Source of the DNA: Hyphomicrobiales bacterium
GTDB taxonomy: Bacteria; Pseudomonadota; Alphaproteobacteria; Rhizobiales; Methyloligellaceae
Reading direction: 5' to 3'
DNA: 64,000 nucleotides
Assembly: GCA_021775595.1 (NCBI GenBank)
Contig: JAJFHN010000072.1
Span: forward strand, 1 to 64,000
Below, in pieces: positions 696 through 38,400 of this stretch (positions are counted from its first letter, which is position 1; each line of letters begins with the position of its first letter). Below the pieces are notes generated by a model. That model had not been told where the DNA came from. It made no database searches and was given only the letters and a program-made list of their open reading frames with translations. The translations under genes were made by a program, and so were the position numbers.

Positions 696-713
696 AGCTG
701 ATAATGATTGCGC

Positions 714-749
714 GGCGGCCTGGATTTTGTGATCTGGGCCGCCGTTTTT
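714..749 (+). terminator. Intrinsic terminator between pmoC and pmoA
   Basis: The inverted repeat GGCGGCC (714-720) / GGCCGCC (737-743) forms a 7-bp GC stem and is followed by a run of five T (745-749). It lies 19 bp after the pmoC stop and about 165 bp before pmoA. It could make pmoC more abundant than pmoAB, or separate the two transcription units. Confidence 0.75.
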
Positions 750-801
750 GCGACTGCATCTGTCGGCTGGCTGGCTCTGGACTAGTGCGTGCGGAGTTGG
801 A

Positions 802-829
802 TTGGCGGATGGTCGAACTTTAGTATAAT
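802..829 (+). promoter_or_regulatory. Candidate sigma-70 promoter for pmoAB
   Basis: TTGGCG (802-807) and a perfect TATAAT (824-829) are 16 bp apart, downstream of the pmoC terminator and 84 bp before the pmoA start. The pmoA start at 914 has a clear ribosome-binding site, GGAGGGG at 900-906. Read from sequence only; the -35 match is partial. Confidence 0.5.
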
Positions 830-913
830 CTGGGTAACGGAAACGTTCAGCAACAGGTCAGGTGTTCATGGCAGGCAACAGCCGCAGACCATGAGGGCTG
901 GAGGGGTTGAGAA

Positions 914-1699
914 ATGTTCAATAACAAGGAAGTTCTCGAATACGCGGGCTTTGGCAAGATGGCCAGTCGCTACTCCATGTATTGGGATCTTATCGTCGTC
1001 ACTGCGATCATTCTGCTTTTTGGCAGCGTGATCCCCCTGTCGGTTATGCTGATGGTCGGTGATTGGGACTTCTTCATTGATTGGCGCGACCGCCAGTTCT
1101 GGCCGCTCGTGTTCCCGATCGTCACTATTTGGTACAGCGCGGCGCTTGCCGGCATTTTTTGGGAGAATTTCCGTTTGCCAATTGGCGCTACAGTTGGCGC
1201 CGTTCTGCTGTTGCTGCCGGTCTGGCTCTCGCGCTGGGGAACATGGCATCTATTCAATAACTACCCCATGAGCATGGTCACGCCGACGCAAGTCATTTCT
1301 GGTGCGCTGATCCTGGATGGCTGCATGCTGGTATTCCGGCATTACGTGTTCACCGCCATCGTTGGCGGCTTCCTGTACGGATTTACCTTCTACTTCGCTA
1401 ATTTCGGACCGATGGCCGGTTTTTTCCAGCCCGTCGAACACCAGGGCGCCATCGCCCCGGTTGCCGATATGGTCGGTTACGCATTCCCGCGTTCGGCGAC
1501 GCCTGAATACATCCGTATCGTGGAACGAAGCACGTTGCGCACATTCGGAGACACGACTGTCTTCTACACCGCCTCGTTCGCCGGTTATGTCTGCGTTCTC
1601 ATGTATTTGATCTGGTGGAAAATCGGAAACTGGTTTGCCCAGGCAACGTTCTTCCCCAACGCAAGCTGGATCAAGTCTTCCGTGGGACTCAAAGATTAG
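914..1699 (+). CDS. pmoA: Copper membrane monooxygenase subunit A (divergent PmoA/AmoA family)
   Basis: This is the membrane-embedded subunit A of a CuMMO, 261 residues, slightly longer than typical PmoA (about 247-252). Family landmarks are present: WRDRQFWP, the ENFRLP segment, and PEYIRIVERSTLRTFG near the C-terminus, where canonical PmoA reads PEYIRMVERGTLRTFG. There are six to seven hydrophobic segments. Between the landmarks it differs clearly from the methanotroph PmoA I remember, so it is probably one of the non-canonical CuMMO groups (hydrocarbon-type or uncultured-cluster). The gene follows a terminator and a promoter candidate, and pmoB starts 41 bp downstream, so the two are probably co-transcribed. 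Identity as a PmoA family member is firm. The substrate (methane, ammonia or short alkane) cannot be read from the sequence alone. Confidence 0.95.
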   Translation: MFNNKEVLEYAGFGKMASRYSMYWDLIVVTAIILLFGSVIPLSVMLMVGDWDFFIDWRDRQFWPLVFPIVTIWYSAALAGIFWENFRLPIGATVGAVLLLLPVWLSRWGTWHLFNNYPMSMVTPTQVISGALILDGCMLVFRHYVFTAIVGGFLYGFTFYFANFGPMAGFFQPVEHQGAIAPVADMVGYAFPRSATPEYIRIVERSTLRTFGDTTVFYTASFAGYVCVLMYLIWWKIGNWFAQATFFPNASWIKSSVGLKD

Positions 1700-1740
1700 T
1701 CGTCCTGATTTAGTGACTTTGTTTTAGTGGAGAGGCAGAA

Positions 1741-3054
1741 ATGACCGGTTTCCGCAAACTAACCGTGCTGGGGCTCGCCGTGCTGGCGGGATTCCTGGCG
1801 ATTACCATCGATACCAAGCCAGCGCTTTCCCATGGTGAGCGCACCCAAGAGCCCTTCTTCCGCATGCGCTCCATGCAGTGGTACGACGTCACCTGGTCGA
1901 AGACCTCGGTCGGCGTCAACGAAGAATGGGAGATGACGGCCAAAGTCTATTTGATGAAGGATTGGCCGGAAACGATCAACAAGCCGGATTTGGTCTATGT
2001 GTCATTGTTGGCGCCAGGGCCGGTCTTTGCGCGAACCGAGAGTTCGCTCAACGGCATCCCGGCCCGCCAGTCCTTCAGGGACCTGAAGCTCGGCACAGTT
2101 TATGACTACCAGATGAAACTGGTTGGCCGAGTTCCTGGCCGTTGGCACGTTCATCCCGAAATTGCCGTTGCCGGCTCGGGACCGTTGGTTGGGCCAGGCG
2201 AATGGGTCGAGGTAACGGGCTCGGCAAGCGATTTCGCGTTTCCGATTGAAACCATGACCGGTGAAAAAATCGCGAATTTGGAGACCTACGGCGTTCTCAA
2301 CATCGGTATGTGGCACCTCATCTGGCTTGCCATCGCGGCCGGTTGGTTGCTCTTTTGGCTGTTGCGGCCGCTCTTGATCCCTCGCTTTCTTGCTCTGCAA
2401 GGAGGCCGCGAGGATCTGCTCGTCAGGCGTACTGACGTGGTTGCTGGCGCGATGCTCGTGGTTGTGTCGCTCACATTGATCTTCACCTCCTATTATCTGG
2501 GCGTCTCGAAGTATCCCAACAGGGTTCCGTTGCAGATCACGGTCAACGAGATCGAAAAAGACATCGAACAGCCGCCAGATGACCTCGACATCACCATGAA
2601 GCGGACGACGTATGACGTGCCGGGCCGTGCATTGCGCATGATTTTTGAGGCAACCAATACCGGTAGCTCACCGCTTACGCTCGGTGAATTCTCAACGTCA
2701 TCACTTCGATTTGTCGATAAGAAGGTGCCGCAGGCCATGGCCCGTGTTGCTCCCGATTATCCCAGGGAATGGGTACCGGAAGGCGGGTTGCAGGTCAGCA
2801 ACAATGCGCCGCTGCAGCCGGGTGAGACGCGCACTTACACCGTCGAGGCCATTGACGTGGCCTGGGAGCTTGAGCGTCTGACGAGCTTCTTGACGGACGT
2901 GGACGCGCGCTTCGGCGGTCTGCTGTTCTTCTACGAACCCGATGGTAGGCGGCACCTGACGGAAATTTCGGGACCGATACTTCCGGTCTTCACTGCAGGT
3001 GACATGGTCTCCCAAAATGAAACAGGTGCGCAGGTCGCAGCTGTCAGTCAATAA
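1741..3054 (+). CDS. pmoB: Copper membrane monooxygenase subunit B (PmoB/AmoB family)
   Basis: This subunit has two periplasmic cupredoxin domains joined by two transmembrane helices. A signal peptide (residues 1-30) should be cleaved before His31, giving the mature start HGERTQ; in Methylococcus PmoB the mature protein also begins at a copper-binding His. The other CuB ligands are His136 and His138 in the motif GRWHVHP. Helices lie near residues 185-215 and 235-260, and the second cupredoxin domain follows. The Methylococcus monocopper-site His48 is Gln47 here (MQWYD), so that site should be absent, as in many other CuMMOs. Ribosome-binding site GGAGAGG is just upstream. A paralogue without the helices is encoded at 5734. 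Confidence 0.95.
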   Translation: MTGFRKLTVLGLAVLAGFLAITIDTKPALSHGERTQEPFFRMRSMQWYDVTWSKTSVGVNEEWEMTAKVYLMKDWPETINKPDLVYVSLLAPGPVFARTESSLNGIPARQSFRDLKLGTVYDYQMKLVGRVPGRWHVHPEIAVAGSGPLVGPGEWVEVTGSASDFAFPIETMTGEKIANLETYGVLNIGMWHLIWLAIAAGWLLFWLLRPLLIPRFLALQGGREDLLVRRTDVVAGAMLVVVSLTLIFTSYYLGVSKYPNRVPLQITVNEIEKDIEQPPDDLDITMKRTTYDVPGRALRMIFEATNTGSSPLTLGEFSTSSLRFVDKKVPQAMARVAPDYPREWVPEGGLQVSNNAPLQPGETRTYTVEAIDVAWELERLTSFLTDVDARFGGLLFFYEPDGRRHLTEISGPILPVFTAGDMVSQNETGAQVAAVSQ

Positions 3055-5733: not shown

Positions 5734-6732
5734 GTGTCTCTGGAACTGGATAGCTGTTCCGCCCGGGCGGGAATAATCGCACTCGCGCTCATGCTGTTGG
5801 TGCCGATCTCCGAGGTTGTGGCGCACGGGGAAAAATTTCAGCAAGCTGATCTGCGCGTACGCTCGATCCAGTGGTACGACACGGAGATCAGCCGTTCGAG
5901 CGCCGAGATCAATGATGCCGTCACATTGAAAGGCAAATTCTACGTTTCGACCAACTGGCCGGACGCATTGTCGAAGTCGCCGCGCGTCTTTTTGCATACT
6001 GGCGCTACCGAGCCGGCGTTGTTGCGGTTGGGCACCAAAATAAACGGCCTACGGCAGGTCGCGCCGGTGAGCCTAGAGCTTGGCGGACACTACGAATATG
6101 AAATGGCATTGAAGGCGCGTGTTCCGGGTCGATCACACATCCACCCAGTACTGCATATCGACGATGCCGGTCCCCTGATCGGTCCAGGTAAATGGATCGA
6201 GGTCGGAGGGAATGCAGCTGACTTCAACTATATCGCCCAAGCATCGAGCACCGCAGGGTTCGTTGTACCGAGCATAAATCCAGCACAGCCGGAGGGTGTC
6301 GTCATAGCCCCGCTTGCCAAGCCGCGCCGAACGGTCGATGCGAAGGTCGAACAGGCAGCCTATGTCACTCCGGCTCGCAGCCTCCGAATGCAGATCAAAG
6401 TCACGAACAACACTAATATGCCGCTGCGTCTTGGCGAAGTCAGCAGCTCTTATGCGAGGTTCATCAATCCGGATGTTTTGGCTAACATTATGCGTGACGA
6501 TCCCGACGAAGCAATTGCGCGCAGCGGATTGATCGTCGAAGGCGGAGAAATCGCGCCAGGAGAGAACAGGACGCTGTATGTGAGGGCCGAAGATCTCATT
6601 TGGGAGGCTGAACGTCTGTCAAAGTTTGGCGAAGACGGCGATGGCCAGTTCGCCGCCCTGATGCATTTTTACGGACCGACCGGTGTTAGGGTGCTGAGCG
6701 AGATCACAGGAACACTGCAGCCAGCCGATTGA
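5734..6732 (+). CDS. Soluble PmoB-like periplasmic dicupredoxin lacking the membrane helices
   Basis: This 332-residue PmoB paralogue starts at GTG with AAGGAG upstream. The signal peptide ends at Ala30, so the mature protein begins His31-Gly-Glu-Lys, as in PmoB. RVRSIQWYD matches RMRSMQWYD of PmoB. GRSHIHP supplies His135 and His137, so all three CuB ligands are kept. GPLIGPGKWIEVGGNAADF closes domain 1. Where PmoB has two helices, this protein has only a hydrophilic Pro-rich linker of about 40 residues (about 188-230). A second cupredoxin domain follows (PARSLRMQIKVTNNT...LRLGEVSSS...HFYGP). The layout resembles the engineered soluble spmoB fragment of Methylococcus PmoB, but occurs here as a natural gene. 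It leads a plus-strand set with the acyl-CoA synthetase (49 bp downstream), enoyl-CoA hydratase and MerR genes. Copper storage, delivery or oxidation are all possible roles. Confidence 0.92.
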   Translation: MSLELDSCSARAGIIALALMLLVPISEVVAHGEKFQQADLRVRSIQWYDTEISRSSAEINDAVTLKGKFYVSTNWPDALSKSPRVFLHTGATEPALLRLGTKINGLRQVAPVSLELGGHYEYEMALKARVPGRSHIHPVLHIDDAGPLIGPGKWIEVGGNAADFNYIAQASSTAGFVVPSINPAQPEGVVIAPLAKPRRTVDAKVEQAAYVTPARSLRMQIKVTNNTNMPLRLGEVSSSYARFINPDVLANIMRDDPDEAIARSGLIVEGGEIAPGENRTLYVRAEDLIWEAERLSKFGEDGDGQFAALMHFYGPTGVRVLSEITGTLQPAD

Positions 6733-15466: not shown

Positions 15467-16318
15467 TTATGGATGGATATCGATGGGAAGCGGCGGTGCT
15501 TCCTGCATGATCAAGATCGATATGCGCCTGTTGGATGCGAGAAACGGGTCTTCCGGAAAGAGCGGTTCAGCATCAGCGCGTCCGGTTATCGAGTGGAAGC
15601 GATCATGCGGCACGCCCATGGCGGAGAACACGTGGCGGGCGGCTTTTGCCCGATCTGCCGAGAGATCCCAAAGCGTATAACCAGGCTTGTCGTATAGGCG
15701 CGAGGCATCCGTGTGCCCCGTGATCGAAATGCGATTGGGCAATTTTTTCAGCACAGGCGCCATTTTTTCTAGAATGGCGCGCGTGCGCGCATAGGGCTCC
15801 GATGAGCCCGACGGAAACATCGAGCGCCCTTCCTGATCAACCAGCTGGATGTGCAGCCCTTGCGGCGATTCCTCGACGATCAAGCTGTCGGAGATTTCGT
15901 GGATCTCGGGTAGCTCGCGCCAAGCTTGCCGCAATGATGCGGCTGCGACCGCGAACTGCCGCGGGCGCTCAATATCAGTTCTTTCGATATTGTGCGTATT
16001 GGCCTCTGGACCTTGTTTGCGGTTCTGATCATGCCGCTCGTTCGAAAAATCGGAATCGGCGTCGCGTTTGATCGGTGATACGGCGCGCACGAAATCGCGT
16101 ACCGGTGAGCCCTCGCGCTCGATCATACCGGCTTTGCGGGCAACGTATTTGATGCCGAATGCCTCGCGCATCGAACCGGCGACAACCTGGAGTTTTTGTT
16201 TGTCCTGGATCGAAAACGAAATGAGCAACACGAAGAAGCAGACCAGGATCGACATCAGGTCCGCAAATGTCACAATCCATTCCGGTGGCCCGGTCGGCGC
16301 TTGCTGTTTTTTTGCCAT
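15467..16318 (-). CDS. motB: MotB-type stator protein with OmpA-like peptidoglycan-binding domain
   Basis: This 283-residue protein has a single N-terminal helix carrying the conserved ion-binding Asp in WIVTFADLMSILVCFFVLL (about residue 20). A charged periplasmic linker (about 70-140) and an OmpA/MotB domain (about 165-275) follow, with ISITGHTDASR and SADRAKAARHVF. It forms the stator with the MotA-type protein encoded just upstream and anchors it to peptidoglycan. No other flagellar gene is in the window, so it could power a flagellum encoded elsewhere or another ion-driven machine. Confidence 0.9.
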   Translation of the reverse strand: MAKKQQAPTGPPEWIVTFADLMSILVCFFVLLISFSIQDKQKLQVVAGSMREAFGIKYVARKAGMIEREGSPVRDFVRAVSPIKRDADSDFSNERHDQNRKQGPEANTHNIERTDIERPRQFAVAAASLRQAWRELPEIHEISDSLIVEESPQGLHIQLVDQEGRSMFPSGSSEPYARTRAILEKMAPVLKKLPNRISITGHTDASRLYDKPGYTLWDLSADRAKAARHVFSAMGVPHDRFHSITGRADAEPLFPEDPFLASNRRISILIMQEAPPLPIDIHP

Positions 16319-16355
16319 AACTGCTGTCCTACATGCCCGTTGAGATTACCGCGCC

Positions 16356-17135
16356 TTAAGCGGGGACCGCTTCCGGGTCTTCGGGCCGCCCACGGTGTTT
16401 TTCGGGCAGATAGGCCTCAAGCATTTCGCGGATCAGGTTCGGATTCTTGCCAGCGTGCAACTGCAGGACCCCATCGATCGCGAGGGTCTGGCTGACTTCC
16501 TCGATTTTCATTTTCGTCGAAAGCTTGTCGGCGATGGGCAGGGCGATGAGGTTGGCTACAACGGCGCCATAAAGCGTCGTCAAGAGAGCAACGGCCATGG
16601 AAGGGCCGATCGTCGATGGATCGTCCATGGTGCTCAACATCTGCACCAGACCCACCAGTGTTCCGATCATGCCGAAGGCGGGAGCCGCATCGCCGATGGC
16701 TTTGTAAATGCGCTGGCCCTCATCGAGGCGCTCGAGGTTCTGATCCCGCTCGCGCTCAAGCGCTTCGCTGATCAGTTTCTCGTCGTAACCGTCTGCGACG
16801 TATTGGGCACCCTTCTTCAGGAAGTCGTCTTCGATCTCTGCCTTTTCCAAACCCAAGGGACCATCCTTGCGCACGACCGCTGCTAAATCGGCGATGATCT
16901 CGATCATTTCCTTCGCGTTCGTATGCTTGTGAGTGAAGGCGACCTTGCCGCCAAGAATCAAGGCGCTGAAGACATTGGCGAGCGGAAAACGGATCACCGT
17001 GGCGGCAAATGCGCCGCCTATGACGATCAGGACGGATGGAACGTTGACAAAACTGCCCACATCTCCGCCGATAACAATTGCGACCGCTACGACTGTAGAA
17101 CCGGCCAGAATTCCGGCGATTGTTGCAATATCCAT
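16356..17135 (-). CDS. motA: MotA/PomA-type stator ion-channel protein
   Basis: This 259-residue protein has four membrane helices: two near the N-terminus (IAGILAGSTVVAVAIVIGG and the PSVLIVIGGAF region) and two near the C-terminus (APAFGMIGTLVGLVQML and AVALLTTLYGAVVANLIALPIADKL). The large cytoplasmic loop between them (about 70-150) carries charged residues that contact the rotor in flagellar MotA. The short length and the GMIGTLVGL motif fit the MotP/PomA branch. It lies 37 bp upstream of the MotB gene, forming a two-gene operon. Confidence 0.92.
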   Translation of the reverse strand: MDIATIAGILAGSTVVAVAIVIGGDVGSFVNVPSVLIVIGGAFAATVIRFPLANVFSALILGGKVAFTHKHTNAKEMIEIIADLAAVVRKDGPLGLEKAEIEDDFLKKGAQYVADGYDEKLISEALERERDQNLERLDEGQRIYKAIGDAAPAFGMIGTLVGLVQMLSTMDDPSTIGPSMAVALLTTLYGAVVANLIALPIADKLSTKMKIEEVSQTLAIDGVLQLHAGKNPNLIREMLEAYLPEKHRGRPEDPEAVPA

Positions 17136-23178: not shown

Positions 23179-24198
23179 ATGAGCGTATTGATCACTGGCG
23201 GAGCGGGTTATATCGGCAGCCACATGGCCCTCGATCTTGTTGAGGCAGGCGAAGAAGTCGTCGTGCTCGACAATCTCACCACCGGTTTTGACTGGGCCGT
23301 ACCGCACACAGCCGAGCTCGTGATCGGTAATGCGGACGACCAGCAGCTGCTCGGTGATCTCATCAAAGACAAGAATATCAACGCGATCATTCATTTTGCG
23401 GGATCAATCGTCGTGCCGGAATCGATTGCCGATCCGCTGGGGTATTACGCCAACAACACGGTCACATCGCGCGCGCTGATCGAGAGCGCCGTCGCAGGTG
23501 GCGTAGAGAACTTCATCTTTTCATCCACCGCTGCCGTCTATGGCTTGCCGGACACCAATCCGGTGAAAGAAACCGCCAATCTGGCGCCCATTTCACCCTA
23601 TGGATCGTCGAAAATGATGACCGAAATCATGTTGGCTGACACCGCGATTGCCAACGATTTCCGGTATGTCGCCTTGCGCTACTTCAATGTCGCAGGCGCC
23701 GACCCGGTTGGTCGGAGCGGTCAATCGACGCCTCATGCGACGCATTTGATCAAAGTTGCCTGTCAAACGGCATTGGGCATGCGGCCCCATATCGACGTGT
23801 TCGGGTCAGATTATCCAACGCCTGACGGCACGTGCGTGCGCGACTACATCCATGTCAGTGATCTGGTGCGCGCCCATCGTGACGCGCTGGCCTATTTGCG
23901 CGGTGATGGCGTTTCGCAAGTGTTCAACTGCGGGTATGGCCGTGGATTCTCGGTCCGAGAGGTCATCGCCTCCGTCAAGCGGGTCTCGGGTGTGGATTTC
24001 GACGTGCGCCAGGCCGAAGACCGGCCAGGCGATCCGGCCTCACTCATCGCCGCGGCGGAACGAATTCGAGATGTCTTGTCATGGCAGCCCCAGCTCGATG
24101 ACCTCGATACAATCGTGACCCACGCGCTTGATTGGGAACGCCATCTGCTCGAGCGCAAGACCAAAGCGGTCAAACCGCACGAGATGGCCGACGCCTGA
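23179..24198 (+). CDS. galE: UDP-glucose 4-epimerase
   Basis: This 339-residue short-chain dehydrogenase interconverts UDP-glucose and UDP-galactose. GGAGYIGSHMALDL binds NAD at the N-terminus. The catalytic Ser-Tyr-Lys set is visible: SSTAAVYG (about 117) and the YGSSK motif (ISPYGSSKMMTEI, Tyr about 144 and Lys about 148). RYFNVAGADP and DYIHVSDL are further family landmarks. TTGGAG precedes the ATG. It is divergent from galU. Confidence 0.96.
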   Translation: MSVLITGGAGYIGSHMALDLVEAGEEVVVLDNLTTGFDWAVPHTAELVIGNADDQQLLGDLIKDKNINAIIHFAGSIVVPESIADPLGYYANNTVTSRALIESAVAGGVENFIFSSTAAVYGLPDTNPVKETANLAPISPYGSSKMMTEIMLADTAIANDFRYVALRYFNVAGADPVGRSGQSTPHATHLIKVACQTALGMRPHIDVFGSDYPTPDGTCVRDYIHVSDLVRAHRDALAYLRGDGVSQVFNCGYGRGFSVREVIASVKRVSGVDFDVRQAEDRPGDPASLIAAAERIRDVLSWQPQLDDLDTIVTHALDWERHLLERKTKAVKPHEMADA

Positions 24199-24307: not shown

Positions 24308-25672
24308 ATGGCCGTATTGGTCTACAAACACACTGCTGAGCGGCGCCTTTGGCGTCTTGCGCACCCTTGGCGCGTCGCGATTTTGTGCATTTTATCGCTC
24401 GCAGTGATGGGGTCGCCAATTATGGGCATCGGCGCGGCTGATGCGGAAACCCATGCCAAACCCACGGCCAAATACAAGTCACTCGTCGAGGACGGTTACC
24501 AGATGTGGCTTTCGCAGCTGCGCGCGGATGCGGTGGCAAGCGGCGTAACCAACGAGACGTTCAACGCGGCTATGCGTGACGTATCGCCAGATTGGTCATT
24601 GCCTGATTTGGTGCTGCCAAATTTGGGGCCTGATGCACCGGCACCGCCCGTTTCAAAAAAACAGGACAAACAACAAGCCGAATTTGGCCGGCCGTCGAGC
24701 TACATCCCCGAGCGCTCAATGGCGCGGATCGCGAAATTGGGCCGCAAAGAACTCAAATCTTGGGGCGAAACCCTTGAGGCGATTGAGAAGGAATATGGCG
24801 TTCAGAAGAGCGTAATCCTGGCCATTTGGGGCCGTGAGACGGGCTTCGGCCGCGCAAAGATCCCGCATTACACAATTCGTGCCCTAACAACCCAAGCGTT
24901 TCTGGGGCGTCGGAAAGAATTTTTTCGCAAAGAACTGTTGCTGGGACTGCAGATTTTACAGGCCGGTCATATCAGCCGGGAAAAGATGAAAAGCTCTTGG
25001 GCTGGCGCCATGGGGCACACGCAATTCCTGCCGAGCGATTTTCACAAATATGCCATCGATTACGACCGTGACGGCCGGCTCGACATTTGGGGAACGATCC
25101 CCGACGCGCTCGCATCAACAGCCAATTTCTTGAATAAAAACGGCTGGGAGGCCGGCAAGACATGGGGCTACGAGGTGCGGCTGCCAAGGAAATTCGATTG
25201 CACTCTGGCTGGACCCGACAATGCGCGGCCAATTCGCGACTGGCTGGCGCTCGGTCTGAAACGGACCTATGACCGGGAATTCAAGGAAGATCGGCAGAGC
25301 GAACAGGCATTTTTGGTGCTTCCAGCGGGCACCATGGGTCCCGCATTTCTCGCAATCAACAATTTCGCCGTGATCAAGCGCTATAATAAAGCCGATCTGT
25401 ATGCCCTTTATGTCGGTCATCTTGCCGACAGAATTTACAGCGACAGCAAGTTTGAAGGCCGATGGTCGAAAGTGTCGGGATTTGGCCGCAGCGACGTGAA
25501 GCTGCTTCAACAGCGGATTGCGGACAGTGGTATCGATGTGGGCAAAATCGATGGTCTGATTGGGTCCAAGACACGCGCCGCCGTCGGAACGTTTCAGAAG
25601 AAGCTTGGTTTGAAGCCGACATGCTATCCCAGCCGTGCGCTTATGAATCGCATAAAATCAGCATCCAATTAG
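24308..25672 (+). CDS. Lytic murein transglycosylase, MltB type, with C-terminal PG-binding domain (first of tandem pair)
   Basis: This protein cleaves peptidoglycan glycan strands, forming 1,6-anhydro-MurNAc ends, in the periplasm. The chosen ATG gives 454 residues beginning with a signal peptide (residues about 18-48). An SLT_2/MltB catalytic domain follows, with the general acid Glu177 in AIWGRETGFG, SWAGAMGHTQFLPS and ALASTANFLNKNGW. A PG_binding_1 domain ends the protein (about 395-454: GKIDGLIGSKTRAAVGTFQKKLGL). Its neighbour at 25799 has the same layout, so a tandem duplication is likely. Starting at 24242 would add 22 residues before the signal peptide. Confidence 0.93.
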   Translation: MAVLVYKHTAERRLWRLAHPWRVAILCILSLAVMGSPIMGIGAADAETHAKPTAKYKSLVEDGYQMWLSQLRADAVASGVTNETFNAAMRDVSPDWSLPDLVLPNLGPDAPAPPVSKKQDKQQAEFGRPSSYIPERSMARIAKLGRKELKSWGETLEAIEKEYGVQKSVILAIWGRETGFGRAKIPHYTIRALTTQAFLGRRKEFFRKELLLGLQILQAGHISREKMKSSWAGAMGHTQFLPSDFHKYAIDYDRDGRLDIWGTIPDALASTANFLNKNGWEAGKTWGYEVRLPRKFDCTLAGPDNARPIRDWLALGLKRTYDREFKEDRQSEQAFLVLPAGTMGPAFLAINNFAVIKRYNKADLYALYVGHLADRIYSDSKFEGRWSKVSGFGRSDVKLLQQRIADSGIDVGKIDGLIGSKTRAAVGTFQKKLGLKPTCYPSRALMNRIKSASN

Positions 25673-25798
25673 GCGCCGCGGAAAATTGACGGCGAAGTGG
25701 TCAGCGGTGTCTAGGCCAACAAAAAAACGCCTGCTAGATTCGCTCAAATGCGATTCGAAACGACAGCCAAAGCGATGGACCGAAAGCAGAGAGCAAAC

Positions 25799-27055
25799 AT
25801 GACCGAGCAGGTGCATCACGCGACCAGACGCCGACATCGCAGCGTCAGTGTGTTGATCCTGCTTGGGTTGATTGCGGCATGCCTTATCGGCGCGACCGCG
25901 ACGCCGATGGGGCCGGCTCAGGCGGCGGACGCAAAATTCAAAAAATTTGTCGATGGCTTTTGGCCGCGAGCACGCAAAGCCGGCATATCGCGCAAGACCT
26001 ATGTCCGCGCGTTCGAAGGCGTGGAACCCGATCCGGAAGTTTGGAAAAAAGACGCCCATCAGCCGGAATTCGTGATGCCAGCCTCGCAATATATCGCCTT
26101 AGCGGTCTCTGATACGCGCATCGAGACGGGCGCAAAGAAGCTGGTGGAATTGAAAGAATTACTTGATGCAATTGAAAAACGTTACAGCGTCGACCGCCAT
26201 GTCTTGATCGCGATTTGGGGCATGGAAACCAACTATGGAACGTTTCCTGGCGATAAATATGTGATCAGGGCCCTGGCAACGCTGGCCTACAAGGGGCGTC
26301 GCACAAAGTTCGGCCGGCGGCAGCTGATAGCGGCATTGCGAATTCTCGAACGCGGCGACACGACGCCAGAGCGGATGACCGGGTCTTGGGCTGGCGCCAT
26401 GGGACACACGCAGTTTATTCCCACGACATATCTCGGGAATGCCGTCGACTATGACGGCGATGGCAAGCGCGACATCTGGGACACGCTGCCAGACGCCTTG
26501 GCCTCGACGGCGAACTACCTCAAGCGCTCCAAATGGCAAATGGGTCAGACCTGGGGTTATGAGGTTGTGCTGCCCAAGCGCTTCAACACGCGCCAGGCGA
26601 GCTTGCGGACCGTCAAGACGATCGGTCAATGGCGCAAATTGGGGATAAAGCGGGTGCGCGATAAGGAGTTCCCGCGCACGGGAGACCGCGCCTCTCTGGT
26701 CTTGCCGGCAGGTTCAAAAGGCCCGGCCTTTCTCATTGTGCAGAATTTTCGTTCGATTATGCGTTACAACGCCGCGACCAAATATGCGCTGGCGGTTGGG
26801 TATCTCTCTGACAGAATTCGTGGCTATCCTGCCTTCGCGCGCGAGTGGCCGGACGGTGTTCGTCCACTCGACAGCGATCAGCGCCGAGAACTGCAAAAAT
26901 TGCTTCTGGCGCGCGGATTTGCAATCGGTGATATCGATGGCGTGATCGGCTCAAAGACCCGCGAAGCCGTGAGCACGGTACAAAAGGAAAAAGGACTGAA
27001 AGCCGATGGTTTTCCGAGCCTGAAACTGCTTCAGGCCATGCGAAAGGACAGTTAG
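25799..27055 (+). CDS. Lytic murein transglycosylase, MltB type, with C-terminal PG-binding domain (second of tandem pair)
   Basis: This paralogue of the preceding gene has 418 residues from the chosen ATG; in-frame ATGs at 25748 and 25775 lack better ribosome-binding sites. It has a signal peptide (about 14-45), the catalytic Glu143 in AIWGMETNYGTFPG, SWAGAMGHTQFIPTTYLG, and a C-terminal PG_binding_1 domain (IDGVIGSKTREAVSTVQ). Sequence identity to the first copy is high around the active site but lower at both ends, so the duplication is not recent. It stands before two SGNH hydrolases and an MBOAT acyltransferase on the same strand. Confidence 0.93.
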   Translation: MTEQVHHATRRRHRSVSVLILLGLIAACLIGATATPMGPAQAADAKFKKFVDGFWPRARKAGISRKTYVRAFEGVEPDPEVWKKDAHQPEFVMPASQYIALAVSDTRIETGAKKLVELKELLDAIEKRYSVDRHVLIAIWGMETNYGTFPGDKYVIRALATLAYKGRRTKFGRRQLIAALRILERGDTTPERMTGSWAGAMGHTQFIPTTYLGNAVDYDGDGKRDIWDTLPDALASTANYLKRSKWQMGQTWGYEVVLPKRFNTRQASLRTVKTIGQWRKLGIKRVRDKEFPRTGDRASLVLPAGSKGPAFLIVQNFRSIMRYNAATKYALAVGYLSDRIRGYPAFAREWPDGVRPLDSDQRRELQKLLLARGFAIGDIDGVIGSKTREAVSTVQKEKGLKADGFPSLKLLQAMRKDS

Positions 27056-27212
27056 CGGCTGGGGCGTCCAACCGTATTTCCACAACGAAACAGGAATTCA
27101 CGCTTTGGCAAGCATTCTGGGGCACCAATGGGATAAACTATGGTTGGTGATTCCCTTACACGCGCTAAGCTGTGTGCAGATATGGGACGGTAAGTACGAT
27201 TGAGGACACGAC

Positions 27213-28505
27213 ATGGTCGGTATTGCGTATCTCATATCCGGGCGAAAATTTGCCCATAAAATCCAAACATTCGTCGCAAGAACGCTGACGCAACTGGCTG
27301 CAGCGCTCGTATTTTGTGTGCTCGCCTCCAGCTCGGGCAGTGCCCAGGGCCTCAACCAGTTTTCGCGCGGCTACGTCACGCCATTTCCGGAAAACGATCA
27401 ATATAAATTGGCGGTTTTTGGAGATTCGCTGGGCGATGGCATGTGGGCAGGCCTCTATCGGGCATTCAAGCCCGACGCCAATATCGACGTCGTAAAGCAC
27501 TCACGAGTTTCCACCGGATTTGTCCGCGTCGACTATTTCGATTGGAACAACCGCATCAAAGGAATTCTTCAGAGTCAGTCGGTTCATATCGCCGTCATTA
27601 TGGTCGGCGCCAACGATATGCAGCCGATCCGGCGGGATCGCAAGTGGCACAAGGTGGGCACACCGGAATGGCGCGAAATCTATGGCGAACGGGTGGACCG
27701 CTTCATCAAGAGTCTCAAGGGTGCAAAGGCTGCCGTTTATTGGGTCGGACTGCCCATCATGCGGACGGCTCGGCATAACGACAGTATGCAATTCATGAAC
27801 GAGGTCTATCGCGAAAAGGCCTACGTCAACGGCGTTAAGTTCATCGATACGTGGAACGGATTTGCCGATCAGTTTGGCCGATACAGCGCCTTTGGCCCCG
27901 ATTTGAGTGGCCAAACGAAACGGCTGAGAGCGTCCGATGGCGTTCACTTCACAATGAACGGTTACCGCAAACTCGCTCACTTTGTTGAGCGCGCCATACG
28001 CGGCGATCTCAAACTTGCGAAATCCGAGCGCAACATTCCCCTGGCTGGCAACCAGTCGGAGCAGGATCGCGCCATGGGCCGCCGCAAAAAACCGGCAGTG
28101 CCCACTGACGAGAAGCAACGCGAAGTGAAGAAGGCGCCCGAGGCAGATGCCGAAAATGCGCAGAGCGAAACGGTCGTCAATCGCCAGCCGTCGGGCGTGC
28201 CCAACAGGGCTCGTAAAGAGGGTCGCGCCATATCGGGTGTGCAAATCGTGCGCCCCAATATCGTCGATTCCTCCGCCGGCGTTCTTGGATCAAGTTACTC
28301 GCCCCAAGGCGAAACAATCGCGCACGATCTGGACAACGGTCTGACAGCGCTAGCCTCAATATCGCCGTTTAATGATACCAATCTTGGCAACGTTACCCGG
28401 CGCCTGCCGCTATCCCAGCGGCCATATTATCGAGTGTTGATTAAGGGCGAACAACTGAGACCCAAGACTGGCCGCACGGACGATTTCTCCTGGCCAGGAA
28501 GTTGA
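27213..28505 (+). CDS. SGNH hydrolase-type esterase, DUF459-like
   Basis: This 430-residue protein has a signal peptide (about 20-44) and an SGNH domain (about 65-260). Block I is FGDSLGDGMWAG with the nucleophile Ser72, block III is GANDMQ, and block V is SDGVHF with Asp242 and His245. The C-terminal 150 residues are charged and low in complexity. GAGGAC lies upstream of the ATG. Family members remove or transfer acyl groups on glycans and peptidoglycan. Its neighbours (lytic transglycosylases and an MBOAT acyltransferase) suggest the substrate is an O-acyl group on an envelope polymer. Confidence 0.85.
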   Translation: MVGIAYLISGRKFAHKIQTFVARTLTQLAAALVFCVLASSSGSAQGLNQFSRGYVTPFPENDQYKLAVFGDSLGDGMWAGLYRAFKPDANIDVVKHSRVSTGFVRVDYFDWNNRIKGILQSQSVHIAVIMVGANDMQPIRRDRKWHKVGTPEWREIYGERVDRFIKSLKGAKAAVYWVGLPIMRTARHNDSMQFMNEVYREKAYVNGVKFIDTWNGFADQFGRYSAFGPDLSGQTKRLRASDGVHFTMNGYRKLAHFVERAIRGDLKLAKSERNIPLAGNQSEQDRAMGRRKKPAVPTDEKQREVKKAPEADAENAQSETVVNRQPSGVPNRARKEGRAISGVQIVRPNIVDSSAGVLGSSYSPQGETIAHDLDNGLTALASISPFNDTNLGNVTRRLPLSQRPYYRVLIKGEQLRPKTGRTDDFSWPGS

Positions 28506-28533
28506 AGGCCCTTCCCAACTAGGTATCGCGTAA

Positions 28534-30069
28534 ATGCGTTGGGAATATCATGAAAGAGGCTGGCGGACTGCGCCTGGCCAAATTGTCGACACCGGCCGGT
28601 CGGGCGCGGGGTGGTTTGGCATTTTGCTTTTCGCGGCCTTGGTGCTGGGATTCTTCGCTGGCGAAAGGTTTTTGCCGCGCCTCGATGGCGGTGACATTTC
28701 CAATGTCATCATGACCCACGATCAGATTGCACGCTCGCGCAAGGCCGCTAAGTTGAAGGTCGCCATTGCGCCGACGCTGCGTGTGGCGAAGGTCGACGCA
28801 GCGCCAAAGCAGGACGTGGCCAGACAGGCGCCACCTGCATCCAAACGCTCGCCACGGGCCGCCATCGCACTTTCGAATTTCTATGCAGCTCTGCGCAGTC
28901 TGGACGAGGGCGCTCGTAGCGAGCCCGTGACCGTCGTGCATTTGGGTGACAGCCATATCGCGTCCGATCGGTTCAGCGGTGATATTCGCGAGCTGTTGCA
29001 GAAGCGGTTTGGCGATGCGGGCCGAGGTATGATGATGCCCGGGTTCCCGTTTGGCTATTACCGGGCCCGTGGCGTTAAGTTCTCCAAGAGCGCCGGTTGG
29101 ACCGCGCAAAACAGCCTGCATAAGGGCAACGGGCCATATGGTTTGAGCGGCGTTAAGTTGACGACACGCCGGCGCGACGCGCGGCTTTCGCTCACGAGCC
29201 ACGACGGTGCATTCGAATGGGCCGACGTGGCGTTCTTGACCGGGCCCAATCAGGGCAGTGCGGAAATTGCCGTCGACAACACAACCAAGCGCGTTCGGAC
29301 CAAAAGCAGCGAATCCGGTGTTCTGTTTGAACGCATTCCGGTCAAAGGAACCAAGCTCGAAGTGCGTGCTGTTGGCGATGGCGCCATTACGGTCCTGTCG
29401 TGGGCAGTTGGTGCAGGTAGGCCCGGAGTACGCTACGTCAATTTCGGAATTCCAAGCGCGACAGCGGACATCACGCGCAAATGGGACAATTCGTTGGTTG
29501 CGGCCGATCTGGCGCGGCTCGACCCTGAACTCATCGTATTGGGCTATGGCACCAATGAGGGGTTCAATGACGGTCTCGATGACAGAGCCTATGAGCGGCG
29601 TTTTAGACAGCTGATCGATCGATTGCGGCAGATGGCGCCCAAGGCTGATTTTCTTGTCATTGGCCCGCCTGATGGCGCCAGGTTTCCGCGAGCCTTGCGC
29701 GGCCGCTCGAAGAGCGCGTCGCTGGCGGGCAGCGGTTGTCGCGCCCTGGGGGGTGATGAGCGGAGCGGCTACTCGAAACTTATTCGCTCTGGCGACCGGC
29801 GTCTGGCGCGTTGGCATCCGCCACCAAAACTAGATGCCGTAAGGCAAGCGCTCAAGCGAGCGGCTTCGATTAACGGCGCCCATTTTTGGGACTGGTCGAG
29901 CGTCATGGGCGGCCCATGCGGCATCCACAAATGGGTTCAGGCAGACCCCAAATTGGCCGCATCCGATCATGTTCATATTACGGGGGCGGGCTCGCGCCGT
30001 TCCGCTGAGGTTCTCTATACGGAACTCATGGCCGGCTTCACCGCACATAAGATGGTGGCGCAACGATGA
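28534..30069 (+). CDS. Membrane-anchored SGNH/GDSL hydrolase
   Basis: This 511-residue protein has one N-terminal helix (GWFGILLFAALVLGFFAG, about 25-42) and a large periplasmic part. The SGNH features are HLGDSHIASDRFSGD (Ser140), GYGTNEGFND (block III, Asn in GTNE) and SDHVHITGAG (Asp478 and His481). It begins 28 bp after the previous SGNH gene, so translation is probably linked. The long insert between blocks I and III may be a carbohydrate-binding beta domain. In known O-acetylation systems a PatB-like SGNH protein works with an MBOAT protein such as the next gene product. Confidence 0.88.
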   Translation: MRWEYHERGWRTAPGQIVDTGRSGAGWFGILLFAALVLGFFAGERFLPRLDGGDISNVIMTHDQIARSRKAAKLKVAIAPTLRVAKVDAAPKQDVARQAPPASKRSPRAAIALSNFYAALRSLDEGARSEPVTVVHLGDSHIASDRFSGDIRELLQKRFGDAGRGMMMPGFPFGYYRARGVKFSKSAGWTAQNSLHKGNGPYGLSGVKLTTRRRDARLSLTSHDGAFEWADVAFLTGPNQGSAEIAVDNTTKRVRTKSSESGVLFERIPVKGTKLEVRAVGDGAITVLSWAVGAGRPGVRYVNFGIPSATADITRKWDNSLVAADLARLDPELIVLGYGTNEGFNDGLDDRAYERRFRQLIDRLRQMAPKADFLVIGPPDGARFPRALRGRSKSASLAGSGCRALGGDERSGYSKLIRSGDRRLARWHPPPKLDAVRQALKRAASINGAHFWDWSSVMGGPCGIHKWVQADPKLAASDHVHITGAGSRRSAEVLYTELMAGFTAHKMVAQR

Positions 30070-30182
30070 TACCGCGCCAGTCATTTGAAGCGGAGTGCGC
30101 CGACATACATCACATGATGCCGACAAGCCGGGGCTGCGCGGCTGGCAATATGGCATTATGGGTTGAACCTCGCGTGGATTAG

Positions 30183-31664
30183 ATGCTGTTTCCAACCCTC
30201 AATTTCGCGCTTTTCTTCATGGTGGTCTTCGCCATCAGTTGGGAGCTCAAGGATCGCGAGGAGTTCAGGAAGGCGTTTCTGCTTGGCGCCAGCTATTTCT
30301 TTTACGGATATTGGGATTGGCGGTTCACGGCGCTCTTGGCCGGCAGTTCGCTCATTAATTATGCCGCTGGCCGCTTCTTGTCACTGACCGACGACGATCG
30401 ACAGAGACGAATTCTTGTCGCGACGGCTGTCGCCTTGAACCTGTCGATACTCGGCCTGTTTAAATACTATGGCTTCTTTTTGGATTCGCTGGCCGACGTG
30501 CTGCTGGCCATGCGATGGGAGCGCGATCTGCCCTTTATGGAGATTGTGCTACCCGTCGGCATTTCGTTTTTCACGTTCCAGGGTATTTCTTACGTCGTCG
30601 ACGTCTACCGCCGCGACATTCCAGCAGCAGACTCGGCGCTGGACATTTTTCTGTATATTTCTTTTTTCCCGCAATTGGTGGCGGGTCCGATTGTGCGCGC
30701 TGCGCATTTTCTGCCACAGCTCAATCAGAAACCTCAGCTTGAGCGCTCAATGGTCTCGCTCGGCATCGTTCTGATTCTGATCGGTCTCTTCAAGAAGATG
30801 GTGATCGCCAATTATCTAGCGAGCGAGCTGGTCGATACGGTCTTCTTCGACCCATCGGTTCACAGCAGCCCCGACCTGTTACTGGCGCTCTATGGATATG
30901 CGGTTCAGATCTATTGTGATTTTTCGGGATACAGCGACATTGCCATCGGTGTTGCGGCTCTGCTTGGCTATAGGTTCAAGTGGAATTTCAATCAGCCGTA
31001 TCGCGCGGCATCGCTGCGGGAGTTTTGGCACCGTTGGCATATCTCGCTTTCGGAGTGGCTGCGCGATTACCTCTATAAGCCGCTCGGCGGCAGCCGGCAC
31101 GGTGGTCTCAAGACATATCGCAATCTAATGCTGACCATGTTTTTGGGTGGAATTTGGCACGGCGCTGCCTGGACATTTGTGATGTGGGGACTGATCCACG
31201 GATCTGTTTTGGCAGCCGAACGGTTGTTGGCGAGCATACGAAGCGCACCCGCTCCAGCCGTCGCGATCGTGGGCTTCGGCCATGGTGCGACCGGGCAACT
31301 GCTCTCGGCCGGTTCGGCCGGCCAGCATATTTTCAGCAGGGTCGTCCGCATATTCATGACGTTCAACATCGTGTGTTTTGCTTGGATATTTTTCCGCGCG
31401 GAGAACTTCGCGTTTGCCTTGGACTATCTCAACGGATTGATTGATTGGAACGGTGAGGCACAGTTCGCCGGACCATTTCTTGTAGTGCTGATTGGCGCAT
31501 CGCTGGCGTGCCATTTCTTGCCCGAGACAATGGTCGAGCACGTGGCGCGCCGGCTCGAATGGTTGGGGCCAATCGGACTGGGTTTGATTTTAGGATTTGG
31601 CGTGCTTTTGATCGAGGCGGTTGCGCCAGAAGGCGTTGCACCATTCATCTATTTTCAGTTCTAA
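30183..31664 (+). CDS. MBOAT family O-acyltransferase (AlgI/PatA type)
   Basis: This 493-residue polytopic membrane protein has about ten helices and moves acetyl or acyl groups from the cytoplasm to a periplasmic acceptor. It starts MLFPTLNFALFF as typical AlgI-like proteins do. The conserved PQLVAGPIVR motif lies near residue 160. REFWHRWHISLSEWLRDYLY (about 280-299), GGIWHGAAW with His326, and WGLIHG with His339 identify the active-site region. The pair with the SGNH protein just upstream fits the PatA/PatB and AlgI/AlgJ arrangements. The acceptor (peptidoglycan, exopolysaccharide or LPS) cannot be told. Confidence 0.93.
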   Translation: MLFPTLNFALFFMVVFAISWELKDREEFRKAFLLGASYFFYGYWDWRFTALLAGSSLINYAAGRFLSLTDDDRQRRILVATAVALNLSILGLFKYYGFFLDSLADVLLAMRWERDLPFMEIVLPVGISFFTFQGISYVVDVYRRDIPAADSALDIFLYISFFPQLVAGPIVRAAHFLPQLNQKPQLERSMVSLGIVLILIGLFKKMVIANYLASELVDTVFFDPSVHSSPDLLLALYGYAVQIYCDFSGYSDIAIGVAALLGYRFKWNFNQPYRAASLREFWHRWHISLSEWLRDYLYKPLGGSRHGGLKTYRNLMLTMFLGGIWHGAAWTFVMWGLIHGSVLAAERLLASIRSAPAPAVAIVGFGHGATGQLLSAGSAGQHIFSRVVRIFMTFNIVCFAWIFFRAENFAFALDYLNGLIDWNGEAQFAGPFLVVLIGASLACHFLPETMVEHVARRLEWLGPIGLGLILGFGVLLIEAVAPEGVAPFIYFQF

Positions 31665-31685
31665 TGGCGATGCTGGGATAATCGA

Positions 31686-32207
31686 TTGATGTCGTTTGCG
31701 TTGGAGTTTCGAAAAAATCATTTGAGCGGCCGGGCCGCTCCGGTCATTGCGCCGGCCAAACGGCGGCGCGCGCGCTCCAAATCGGCTGACCGGAAGGCGG
31801 TCAACGCCGCCACGTCTATCAGCGGTCGTCAGGTTGCACGCGCTCTGATGATTGCAGGTCTTATCCTGGCGGTCTTTAATTCAAGCGCGTTGGTGCAGTA
31901 CACCCACAGGCTTTCCGACAATGTTTTAGGGCCGGAAATCATCATCGCCTCGGAGAAATGGCACGCTCTGATGGAAACGGGCCGAATGACCGAAATCAGC
32001 CATAGGATACGCACGGCAGTGGCGACAGCGCGGACATCCAGTTGGCATGACATTGGCGAAAATCTCGGGCTCGACGTTCGGCAGATCAGCCAGTCCGGTG
32101 AGCCGAACAGCCAGTCCAACAACGGCATAATCACTTCGGCGCCCCAACGCCCGGACGAGCGTGGCGAACAGCCGCTTCGAAGTTCAATTGCGGATGGATC
32201 CAGCTAG
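31686..32207 (+). CDS. Small membrane-anchored protein of unknown function
   Basis: This is a 173-residue protein not recognised in any family. A very basic N-terminus (about 1-50, AKRRRARSKSADRK) precedes one helix (ARALMIAGLILAVFNSSALV, about 52-72). A periplasmic region of about 100 residues follows. It begins 22 bp after the MBOAT gene and is probably the last gene of that operon, so it may be an accessory factor of the acyltransferase. Confidence 0.65.
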   Translation: MMSFALEFRKNHLSGRAAPVIAPAKRRRARSKSADRKAVNAATSISGRQVARALMIAGLILAVFNSSALVQYTHRLSDNVLGPEIIIASEKWHALMETGRMTEISHRIRTAVATARTSSWHDIGENLGLDVRQISQSGEPNSQSNNGIITSAPQRPDERGEQPLRSSIADGSS

Positions 32208-32246: not shown

Positions 32247-33665
32247 CTAACGCGGCAGGTCGCTGTGACCCATTAGAAATGCGTCAATGGCGTGGGCCGC
32301 CTGTCGGCCCTCGCGGATCGCCCAGACCACCAGCGACTGACCACGCCGCATATCGCCAGCTGTAAAGACTTTTTCCCGCGACGTCAGATATTGGATCTCG
32401 TTGGCTTTAACGTTTCCGCGCTCGTCGAGCTCGACACCAAGATCGGCCAGCAAACCTTCGTGGATTGGATGAAGAAAGCCCATGGCCAGCAGAACCAGGT
32501 CAGCTTTCAGCTCGAACTCCGAGTCATCTATCGGTTTCATGCTGCCGTCGACCTGCACGCATTGCAGTGTTTTTACGCGTCCATCGACGCCTCTGACGCC
32601 TGTGGTCATTACGCTCCAGTCTCGATTTGCCCCTTCGGCCTGGCTGGAAGACGTTCGCATTTTGAGTGGCCAATGCGGCCAGGTCATTTCCTTGTTTTCC
32701 GCTTCGGGCGGGCGCGGCAAGATCTCGAGCTGAGTAACCGACAATGCGCCTTGGCGAAATGACGTTCCGATGCAGTCTGAGCCTGTATCGCCACCGCCGA
32801 TCACTACGACGTGCTTGCCGTCAGCCGTGATCGGTTTGACATCGCCTAACGGCTCGTTGCCGCCCCGCCGGTTTTGCTGGACAAGAAAATCCATGGCGAA
32901 ATGAATGCCGTCTAAGTCGCGGTCTTCAATCGGCAAGTCGCGGGGGTGCTCGGAACCTCCGGCCAGCAGCAAAGCGTCATGGTTCAGGTCCAGCTCTTCG
33001 ATGGAGAGATCCGTGCCGACATCGACGCCGCAATGGAACGTGACGCCTTCCGCTTCCATTTGAGCGACCCGTTGATCGATGATGTGTTTTTCCATCTTGA
33101 AATCTGGAATGCCGTAGCGCAACAGACCGCCCGGCTTGGCATTTCTTTCGTAGACATGCACATCGTGGCCGGCGCGGGCGAGCTGTTGTGCACCTGCCAG
33201 TCCGGCCGGACCCGATCCGATAATGCCAATGCGCTTACCCGTTGTATGGACCGGAGGTTGCGGTCCGACCCAGCCTTGCGACAAGGCTTTATCGGCAATC
33301 GTACATTCGATTGTCTTGATGGTTACAGGCGCATCTTCAAGATTAAGCGTGCAGGCGGCCTCGCATGGCGCGGGACAAATCCGGCCGGTGATTTCGGGAA
33401 AATTGTTGGTCGAATGAAGGTTGCGAGAGGCTTCCTGCCAACTGTCGTTGTAGATGAGATCATTCCAATCGGGGATCTGGTTGTTTACAGGACAGCCCGT
33501 ATGACAATACGGAATTCCGCAGTCCATACACCGCGCGGCCTGTCGGCGAACATTTTCGTCATCCAGTGGAATCACAAATTCGTTGTAGTTACGAACGCGA
33601 TCGGATGCCGGACGATTCTTGCGATCCTGCCGGTCTATTTCCAGAAACCCGGTTACTTTGCCCAT
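32247..33665 (-). CDS. gltD: Glutamate synthase small (beta) subunit
   Basis: This is the NADPH-oxidising flavoprotein subunit of GOGAT, 472 residues when started at the ATG at 33665 ([15 protein letters not shown]). Two Cys-rich clusters are visible near the N-terminus: [14 protein letters not shown] and [12 protein letters not shown]. Dinucleotide-binding motifs [14 protein letters not shown] (FAD) and [11 protein letters not shown] (NADPH) follow. The upstream gltB stop is 4 bp away, so the two are co-transcribed. Together they make glutamate from glutamine and 2-oxoglutarate. Confidence 0.96.
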
Positions 33666-33669
33666 AAAC

Positions 33670-38400
<4,731 letters not shown>

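Follow-up and report, generated by a model that had tools for sequence, protein, structure and literature searches.

Which polymer is modified by the products of six neighbouring genes of a Hyphomicrobiales bacterium, and what is the role of the smallest of them, a membrane protein without a family name? The genes are located between positions 24308 and 32207 of the stretch of DNA analysed here (64,000 nucleotides of contig JAJFHN010000072.1, hereafter the window) and encode two lytic transglycosylases (LT1 and LT2), two SGNH hydrolases, an acyltransferase of the MBOAT family and the small protein. A previous sequence-only reading had listed all six on one strand; they are indeed present on the plus strand and are separated by 21-157 bp, as calculated from the coordinates. 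A scan of the locus for promoters and terminators revealed nothing that exceeds shuffled sequences, and the genes may be transcribed as a single unit. We consider it probable that the locus is an operon for peptidoglycan O-acetylation and de-O-acetylation, in which the transferase PatB is divided into two proteins and which stands beside an older pair of a lytic transglycosylase (LT) and a DUF459 protein. Relatives were taken from an order sample of 101 genomes, with DUF459 loci from all 90 carriers (105 copies, window included), from a class sample of 385 genomes searched with a profile of the small protein (A1), and from named genome contigs scanned with an alignment of the esterase Ape1, of which the best 80 of 476 relatives were analysed. 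Genomes and loci are cited by G and L numbers.

The first SGNH protein (P0003, 27213-28505, plus strand) matches DUF459 with an E-value of 4e-71, and the DUF459/PatB family has been described before (PMC9487903). Its best matches in the PDB are the PatB structures of Campylobacter jejuni (8gr2, E 2e-29; 8tlb, E 6e-28), and PatB of Neisseria gonorrhoeae is also recovered (7trr and 7tjb, E 6e-21). The catalytic set is intact with Ser72, Asp242, His245 and the block III residue Asn134; block II carries Ser100, which matches the gonococcal enzyme, and the replacement of the block II glycine by serine or asparagine is described as a PatB trait (PMC12148441). A structural model built with 49 sequences from the window and the named contigs reaches a pLDDT of about 97 over residues 61-260, and aligns with PatB structures at Z scores of 28.8-26.7 (VIA-align; best rmsd 1.7 over 206 aligned residues), with Ape1 as the next family at 18.6. 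The model also contains two beta hairpins (139-146 and 227-237); among solved SGNH proteins, two wing-like hairpins have been described for PatB only (PMC12148441). Sequence and model together argue strongly for a PatB-like protein. It differs from PatB in that the chain consists of a signal-like helix, the SGNH domain (residues ~60-265) and a long disordered tail, and the N-terminal membrane region of one transmembrane (TM) helix and two further helices is missing. The protein also scores below the NCBIfam cut-off for the PatB equivalog (93.6 versus 580 bits).

The second SGNH protein (P0004, 28534-30069, plus strand) is assigned by the family library to a GDSL lipase-like protein. A comparison with solved structures revealed similarity to Ape1 of Neisseria (NmApe1, 4k3u, "Peptidoglycan O-acetylesterase in action"; E 1.9e-26) and of Campylobacter (8gkd, E 6e-7), and Ser140, Asn341, Asp478 and His481 are intact, which makes a strong case at the sequence level for an Ape1-like O-acetylpeptidoglycan esterase. 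The genome contains a single DUF459 gene and a single homologue of this second protein. The idea that two SGNH proteins beside the MBOAT correspond to PatB and Ape, which had been raised from the sequence alone, thus agrees with the matches of both proteins and, for PatB, with the fold as well. The families of both SGNH proteins are also the reason why we assume that peptidoglycan is the target.

The third component is the sole MBOAT of the genome (P0005, 30183-31664, plus strand), a candidate PatA-like acetyl exporter. It has the MBOAT domain with His326 and ends with the hexapeptide FIYFQF (31644-31661), which includes Tyr490; these residues match those of PatA, which acetylates the tyrosine of a C-terminal FXYXXF peptide from where PatB takes the acetyl group (PMC12148441). 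FIYFQF terminates 69 of the 72 MBOATs on named contigs; one further copy lies within a masked read-through (L332) and two are cut. Several observations speak against equating the protein with PatA. The FXYXXF motif also terminates other MBOATs of the order and is hence not diagnostic, and Glu7 of PatA, a modelled contact to the TM helix of PatB, corresponds to Asn7 in the window, with an acidic residue at this position in no more than 66 of the 93 homologues matched. Furthermore, a free tree separates the MBOAT from the beta- and gammaproteobacterial PatA proteins, with three separate groups; a common clade is neither shown nor rejected (p-AU 0.58), and the DltB outgroup is far too long.

It is in this context that another substrate has to be considered. 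The MBOAT is no nearer to known PatA proteins than to other MBOATs, and the genes upstream of the LTs encode sugar-nucleotide enzymes and a BBP2_2 porin (kdsD, BBP2, galU and galE, the last at 23179-24198 on the plus strand, identified by family match and by its recurrence as flank of the conserved locus). The MBOAT and the SGNH proteins could therefore acetylate an exopolysaccharide or lipopolysaccharide, with the LTs as bystanders. We regard this as improbable, as the solved members of both SGNH families act on peptidoglycan, and as kdsD, BBP2, galU and galE occupy the same place in genomes without any MBOAT and are mostly missing from the clusters outside the order.

The most informative gene of the peptidoglycan operon that we propose is the one encoding the small one-TM protein (P0006, 31686-32207, plus strand, with a TTG start or an ATG at 31689). 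Its conserved core (31827-32051) comprises a single TM helix, a motif centred on FNS..LV and a tryptophan that is invariant. Pfam and NCBIfam contain no family for the protein of the window, and a search of 53 family members against Pfam gave two stray matches, each in one member. In the order sample it is present in all ten genomes with an MBOAT that is at least 50% identical and, with a weak match (E 0.009), in one of the 91 others (Fisher p 6e-13, with an identity threshold chosen post hoc and kinship uncorrected). The profile matched 22 of the 385 genomes of the class sample, 18 of them with E<1e-6 including the window; the four weak matches look like chance. Sixteen of the 17 other E<1e-6 matches are located directly downstream of this MBOAT, and the remaining one lies at a contig end beside gltD (G486). 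On the named contigs, 65 of 72 MBOAT loci hold the small gene according to the profile, and the seven unscored loci comprise one that has the gene in a partly masked stretch (L332), two with a short one-TM frame that does not score (L381, L389), three at a contig edge (L327, L384, L387) and a fusion (L388). In one genome (G039) the MBOAT, the small gene and the pair of DUF459 and Ape1 are on separate contigs, and all have been retained. The small protein is therefore an undescribed family that is encoded directly downstream of the MBOAT across Alphaproteobacteria.

The fusion gives a first indication of what this family might do. In Roseomonas genomospecies 6 (L388) a single open reading frame (ORF) encodes both the small domain (E 5.9e-16) and the PatB domain, with the small domain at the N-terminus of PatB. 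This is the only MBOAT locus with a long downstream sequence and nothing that resembles a separate small gene, and the arrangement was found in one of 205 DUF459 ORFs searched. In Neisseria and Campylobacter, PatB starts with a TM helix followed by two helices, and this part has been modelled against PatA, where helices 1 and 17 hold it (PMC12148441); the AlphaFold model of the small protein has the same layout, with a TM helix at 45-75 (break at 64) and helices at 81-96 and 100-116. The confidence of this model is limited: ten-residue means of pLDDT are about 67-83 in the helices (~75), the overall mean is 68.5 and the pTM 0.32. The separate alphaproteobacterial PatB proteins that were compared have no N-terminal TM region, unlike the beta- and gammaproteobacterial ones. 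It is thus likely, from sequence and model, that the small protein is the membrane domain of PatB as a separate subunit. The sequence-only reading had missed this likely identity.

A number of results weigh against this assignment. A profile comparison with ten N-termini of beta- and gammaproteobacterial PatB proteins aligns no more than the TM helix with its exit (hhalign probability 24%), and for a subset of six sequences the score is reached by 3 of 100 column shuffles that keep the TM. The helices of the window protein, helix 1 included, are not amphipathic beyond shuffles, and a further fusion was not found in the 385 class genomes or plasmids, which leaves one fused genome. Finally, a 3.65-kb piece of another genome (G517, L411) contains the MBOAT and two DUF459 frames, and the small protein was not found in it. 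Sequence proof of homology to the beta- and gammaproteobacterial N-termini was not obtained. As the alignment is confined to the TM, amphipathicity does not exceed shuffles and the fusion is single, we grade the assignment as membrane domain of PatB as likely and unproven. A Foldseek search with the model gave no match at E<=10, which is uninformative due to the low confidence of the model. An assignment as the microprotein DltX was ruled out: the C-terminus reads ...IADGSS and lacks FXYXXF, a motif that is found on the MBOAT itself.

The restriction of the similarity to the TM, the single fused genome and the apparent lack of the small protein in G517 would also fit an independent regulator or chaperone of the MBOAT, with the Roseomonas fusion as a chance join of neighbouring functions. 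We give this explanation a minor but real chance; the fusion places the small domain at the N-terminal position of PatB in a locus without a separate copy, the separate alphaproteobacterial PatB proteins that were compared are devoid of the TM region that the beta- and gammaproteobacterial ones possess, and the predicted three-helix layout agrees with the PatB N-terminus.

That the grouping of these genes is not restricted to the window became clear from the clusters outside the order. All 16 clusters of the class sample have the order DUF459, (Ape1), MBOAT, small gene, with Ape1 missing only in L306, and in seven of them gltD follows. Similarly, the order of DUF459, Ape1, MBOAT and small gene recurs in most of the best 80 of 476 named loci, 72 of which contain the MBOAT; they include Methyloligella halotolerans, Parvibaculum indicum, P. 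sedimenti, Tepidicaulis marinus, Reyranella, Vineibacter, Caulobacter sp., Komagataeibacter and Roseomonas. Plasmid pR1a of Sphingomonas sp. R1 (L416) carries these four genes as well, with FIYYQF as the hexapeptide and an adjoining cell wall hydrolase gene. Since the order recurs in 16 other alphaproteobacterial clusters and in most of the best 80 named loci, a chance grouping is excluded. A scattering of the members in relatives, which would have spoken against an island, is not seen for the block of PatB, Ape1, MBOAT and small protein. Tandem DUF459 genes occur at two loci (L127 and L129), with two copies in G014 and three in G038; their triads are intact and they stand beside Ape1 and/or the MBOAT.

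The situation is different for the LTs. LT1 (24308-25672) and LT2 (25748-27055), both on the plus strand, exceed the cut-off of NCBIfam MltB_2 (248 bits) with 350 and 373 bits, respectively, and have a C-terminal PG_binding_1 domain. The closest solved relative of LT1 is the soluble lytic transglycosylase B3 (SltB3, 5anz; E 3e-77), and the catalytic glutamate is intact in LT1 (AIWGRE) as well as in LT2 (AIWGME); both are classified as SltB3-type. In the order sample DUF459 is present in 90 genomes, an MBOAT (PF03062) in 34 and an Ape1 homologue in 15, and 57 of the 90 DUF459-bearing genomes have no MBOAT at all. An LT is located directly upstream of DUF459 on the same strand for 75 copies in 75 of these 90 genomes; on the downstream side the nearest marker is a convergent gltD in 55 (in the window at 32247-33755 on the minus strand). 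LT and DUF459 are therefore a core pair of Hyphomicrobiales. The locus that looks ancestral consists of kdsD-BBP2-galU-galE-LT1-LT2-DUF459 facing gltD-gltB. Ape1, the MBOAT and the small gene are located between DUF459 and gltD in the window and in three genomes of another genus (G006, G094 and G057, in the last of which the block is spread over two contigs), and an otherwise identical locus without these three genes occurs in two members of the family to which the window belongs (G031, G074). Most likely the pair predates the acetylation genes or can at least be separated from them. The proposal that the modification and the enzymes it controls are grouped here holds for the enzymes that add and remove the acyl group, as the genes for the PatB-like protein, the Ape1-like protein and the MBOAT adjoin; a special tie of the LTs to the acetylation genes is not supported, as LT-DUF459 pairs are common without the MBOAT and an LT is mostly absent beside the clusters outside the order.

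The state of the DUF459 active site is associated with linkage to the MBOAT. Among MBOAT-linked copies the triad is intact in 15 of 16 cases of the order sample (the other has threonine for serine), in all 16 of the class sample and in all 71 assessable copies on named contigs (2 cut). The remaining copies of the order sample comprise 27 intact and 56 broken triads (83 assessable) and six that are cut or gapped (Fisher p 5e-6 for triad versus MBOAT linkage). The gapped copies include those of the window's sister genus without the MBOAT (G031, G074), in which serine is replaced by glycine and histidine is deleted. In each of three genomes (G018, G038, G084) a broken copy beside the LT coexists with an intact one beside the MBOAT; in G039 the LT-linked copy keeps its triad. 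A tree of 133 DUF459 domains requires a minimum of 20 changes in the state of the triad and of 10 in linkage. A test of this association that is corrected for kinship yields 4 independent pairs on starred branches with a median p of 0.5 and has no power; on average 2.2 of the pairs point in the same direction and 0.0 in the opposite one. Ape1 sometimes decays as well: copies in MBOAT-bearing loci (n=95) are intact in 92 cases, cut in two and masked in one, and the 16 copies without an MBOAT comprise nine that retain Ser-Asp-His, four that are broken and three that are cut. The losses include G030 and G073, which both resemble the Rhodomicrobium locus L321, and two of the nine copies with Ser-Asp-His (G046 and L319, one locus seen twice) have lost the asparagine.

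Many LT-linked DUF459 proteins, including ones with a broken triad, carry a C-terminal peptide similar to GRADDFSWP, with which their long disordered tail ends; the version of the window, GRTDDFSWP (28461-28502, plus strand), is kept in most LT-linked homologues. In the order sample, a strict pattern of this peptide matches, among LT-linked copies without the MBOAT, 30 of 45 that have a broken triad and 12 of 21 that have an intact one; it is found among intact MBOAT-linked copies without an adjoining LT in one of 11 of the order sample and 7 of 16 of the class sample. As the triad is often lost without the MBOAT while the gene mostly stays beside the LT and the peptide is kept in many copies, DUF459 probably has a second, non-catalytic role, and the data suggest that this role is tied to the LT-linked gene lineage. 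It also follows from the frequency of the pair without the MBOAT, and from its retention in most cases after loss of the triad, that the LTs represent the older association.

One may ask whether the DUF459 protein of the window serves only the LT, as in its relatives without the MBOAT, and whether the MBOAT in fact works with the Ape1-like protein. In most genomes of the order that have no MBOAT, DUF459 is preceded by an LT, and the protein of the window bears the tail typical of LT-linked copies. Nevertheless we consider this very unlikely, because the genome encodes no second DUF459 protein and the triad of this one is intact, whereas the homologues of the sister genus without the MBOAT have lost serine and histidine, and because Ape1 is missing from some MBOAT clusters in which DUF459 is present (L306).

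In the split PatB operon that we favour, the acetylated tyrosine of the FIYFQF peptide would pass the acetyl group on to Ser72 of the PatB-like protein in the periplasm, and this protein would place it on O-6 of MurNAc. The small protein, as the separate membrane part of PatB, would form a complex in which the SGNH domain is kept at the MBOAT. Acetyl groups would be taken off by the Ape1-like protein, after which the two LTs could cut, and the modification may control them. We infer acetyl as the acyl group and peptidoglycan as the substrate, and the same applies to the complex and to the control of the LTs. A complex of LtgA and Ape1, which stimulate each other, has been reported from Neisseria meningitidis (PMC7083599) and is a precedent for coupling between an LT and an SGNH protein of O-acetylpeptidoglycan (OAP) metabolism. 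In contrast to that pair, the LT neighbour here is a DUF459 protein, often with a broken triad, the LT is a different one and the link is one of gene neighbourhood.

The locus shares with the OAP clusters of Neisseria and Campylobacter an MBOAT with an FXYXXF end, an Ape1 esterase, the adjacency of the genes and a DUF459 PatB with a Ser-His-Asp triad and a block II residue other than glycine. It differs in the gene order (PatB-Ape1-MBOAT-small gene versus PatA-PatB-Ape1), in the N-terminal membrane region, which is seemingly a separate protein, and in the adjoining LTs and gltD; in addition, orthology of the PatA-like MBOAT is not established by the tree. The Dlt system also combines an MBOAT, an SGNH protein and a small one-TM protein, the microprotein DltX (PMC12148441), but here FXYXXF is part of the MBOAT, as in PatA, and not of the small protein, and none of the six genes is DltC-like. 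Also alphaproteobacterial is the OAP cluster of Zymomonas mobilis, reported in 2005, in which pat is preceded by ape2 (=PatB) and ape1, with a gene for a cell wall hydrolase nearby; it differs with regard to the LT genes, and the small protein is not mentioned in the description of that cluster (PMC1199599). The plasmid of Sphingomonas sp. R1 has this arrangement too, and there the small gene is included. The Zymomonas paper also reports O-acetylated peptidoglycan of 18.5% in Bradyrhizobium japonicum and 1.5-3.4% in Agrobacterium. The earlier remark that alphaproteobacterial versions are little studied is therefore fair in general and has to be qualified by these data of 2005 for Bradyrhizobium, Agrobacterium and Zymomonas. 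No alphaproteobacterium is apparent in the table of Gram-negative OAP clusters in a 2018 review (PMC6174289), and among the titles and abstracts listed for alphaproteobacterial OAP genes and for SGNH pseudoenzymes with LTs, none concerns a small PatA-linked protein or a dead DUF459. The pathway is known in Alphaproteobacteria; the gene organisation, with PatB probably split, is new.

In general terms, Alphaproteobacteria may O-acetylate peptidoglycan with a PatB in two pieces, in which an unnamed membrane subunit recruits the separate, soluble SGNH enzyme to the MBOAT, and where Hyphomicrobiales have no MBOAT, DUF459 may be a widespread pseudoenzyme beside an LT that works through the GRxDDFxWP peptide and not through the active site; we put the chances of this wider proposal at about even. 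If it is true, the MBOAT-SGNH pathway of Gram-negative bacteria known from Neisseria and Campylobacter gains a natural form with three components, whose docking domain could be removed or exchanged on its own, and the role of the PatB N-terminus in cells becomes directly testable in harmless species. A function would also be assigned to an unnamed protein family and to DUF459 proteins throughout Hyphomicrobiales, where catalytically dead copies next to LTs suggest that the protein acts as a scaffold or regulator.

Apart from this locus, the window contains amoC/pmoC, amoA/pmoA and pmoB-type genes of a copper membrane monooxygenase according to Pfam (24-3054), followed by ORFs that look like a thiolase, an acyl-CoA synthetase and an enoyl-CoA hydratase, as judged by eye. 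Judging from these genes, the source organism might oxidise alkanes or methane. Separately from pmoCAB, a further PmoB-like protein of shorter length is encoded (5734-6732), which matches Monooxygenase_B in two stretches. Genes similar to MotB/OmpA and MotA/ExbB, of the flagellar stator type, are located on the minus strand (15467-17135).

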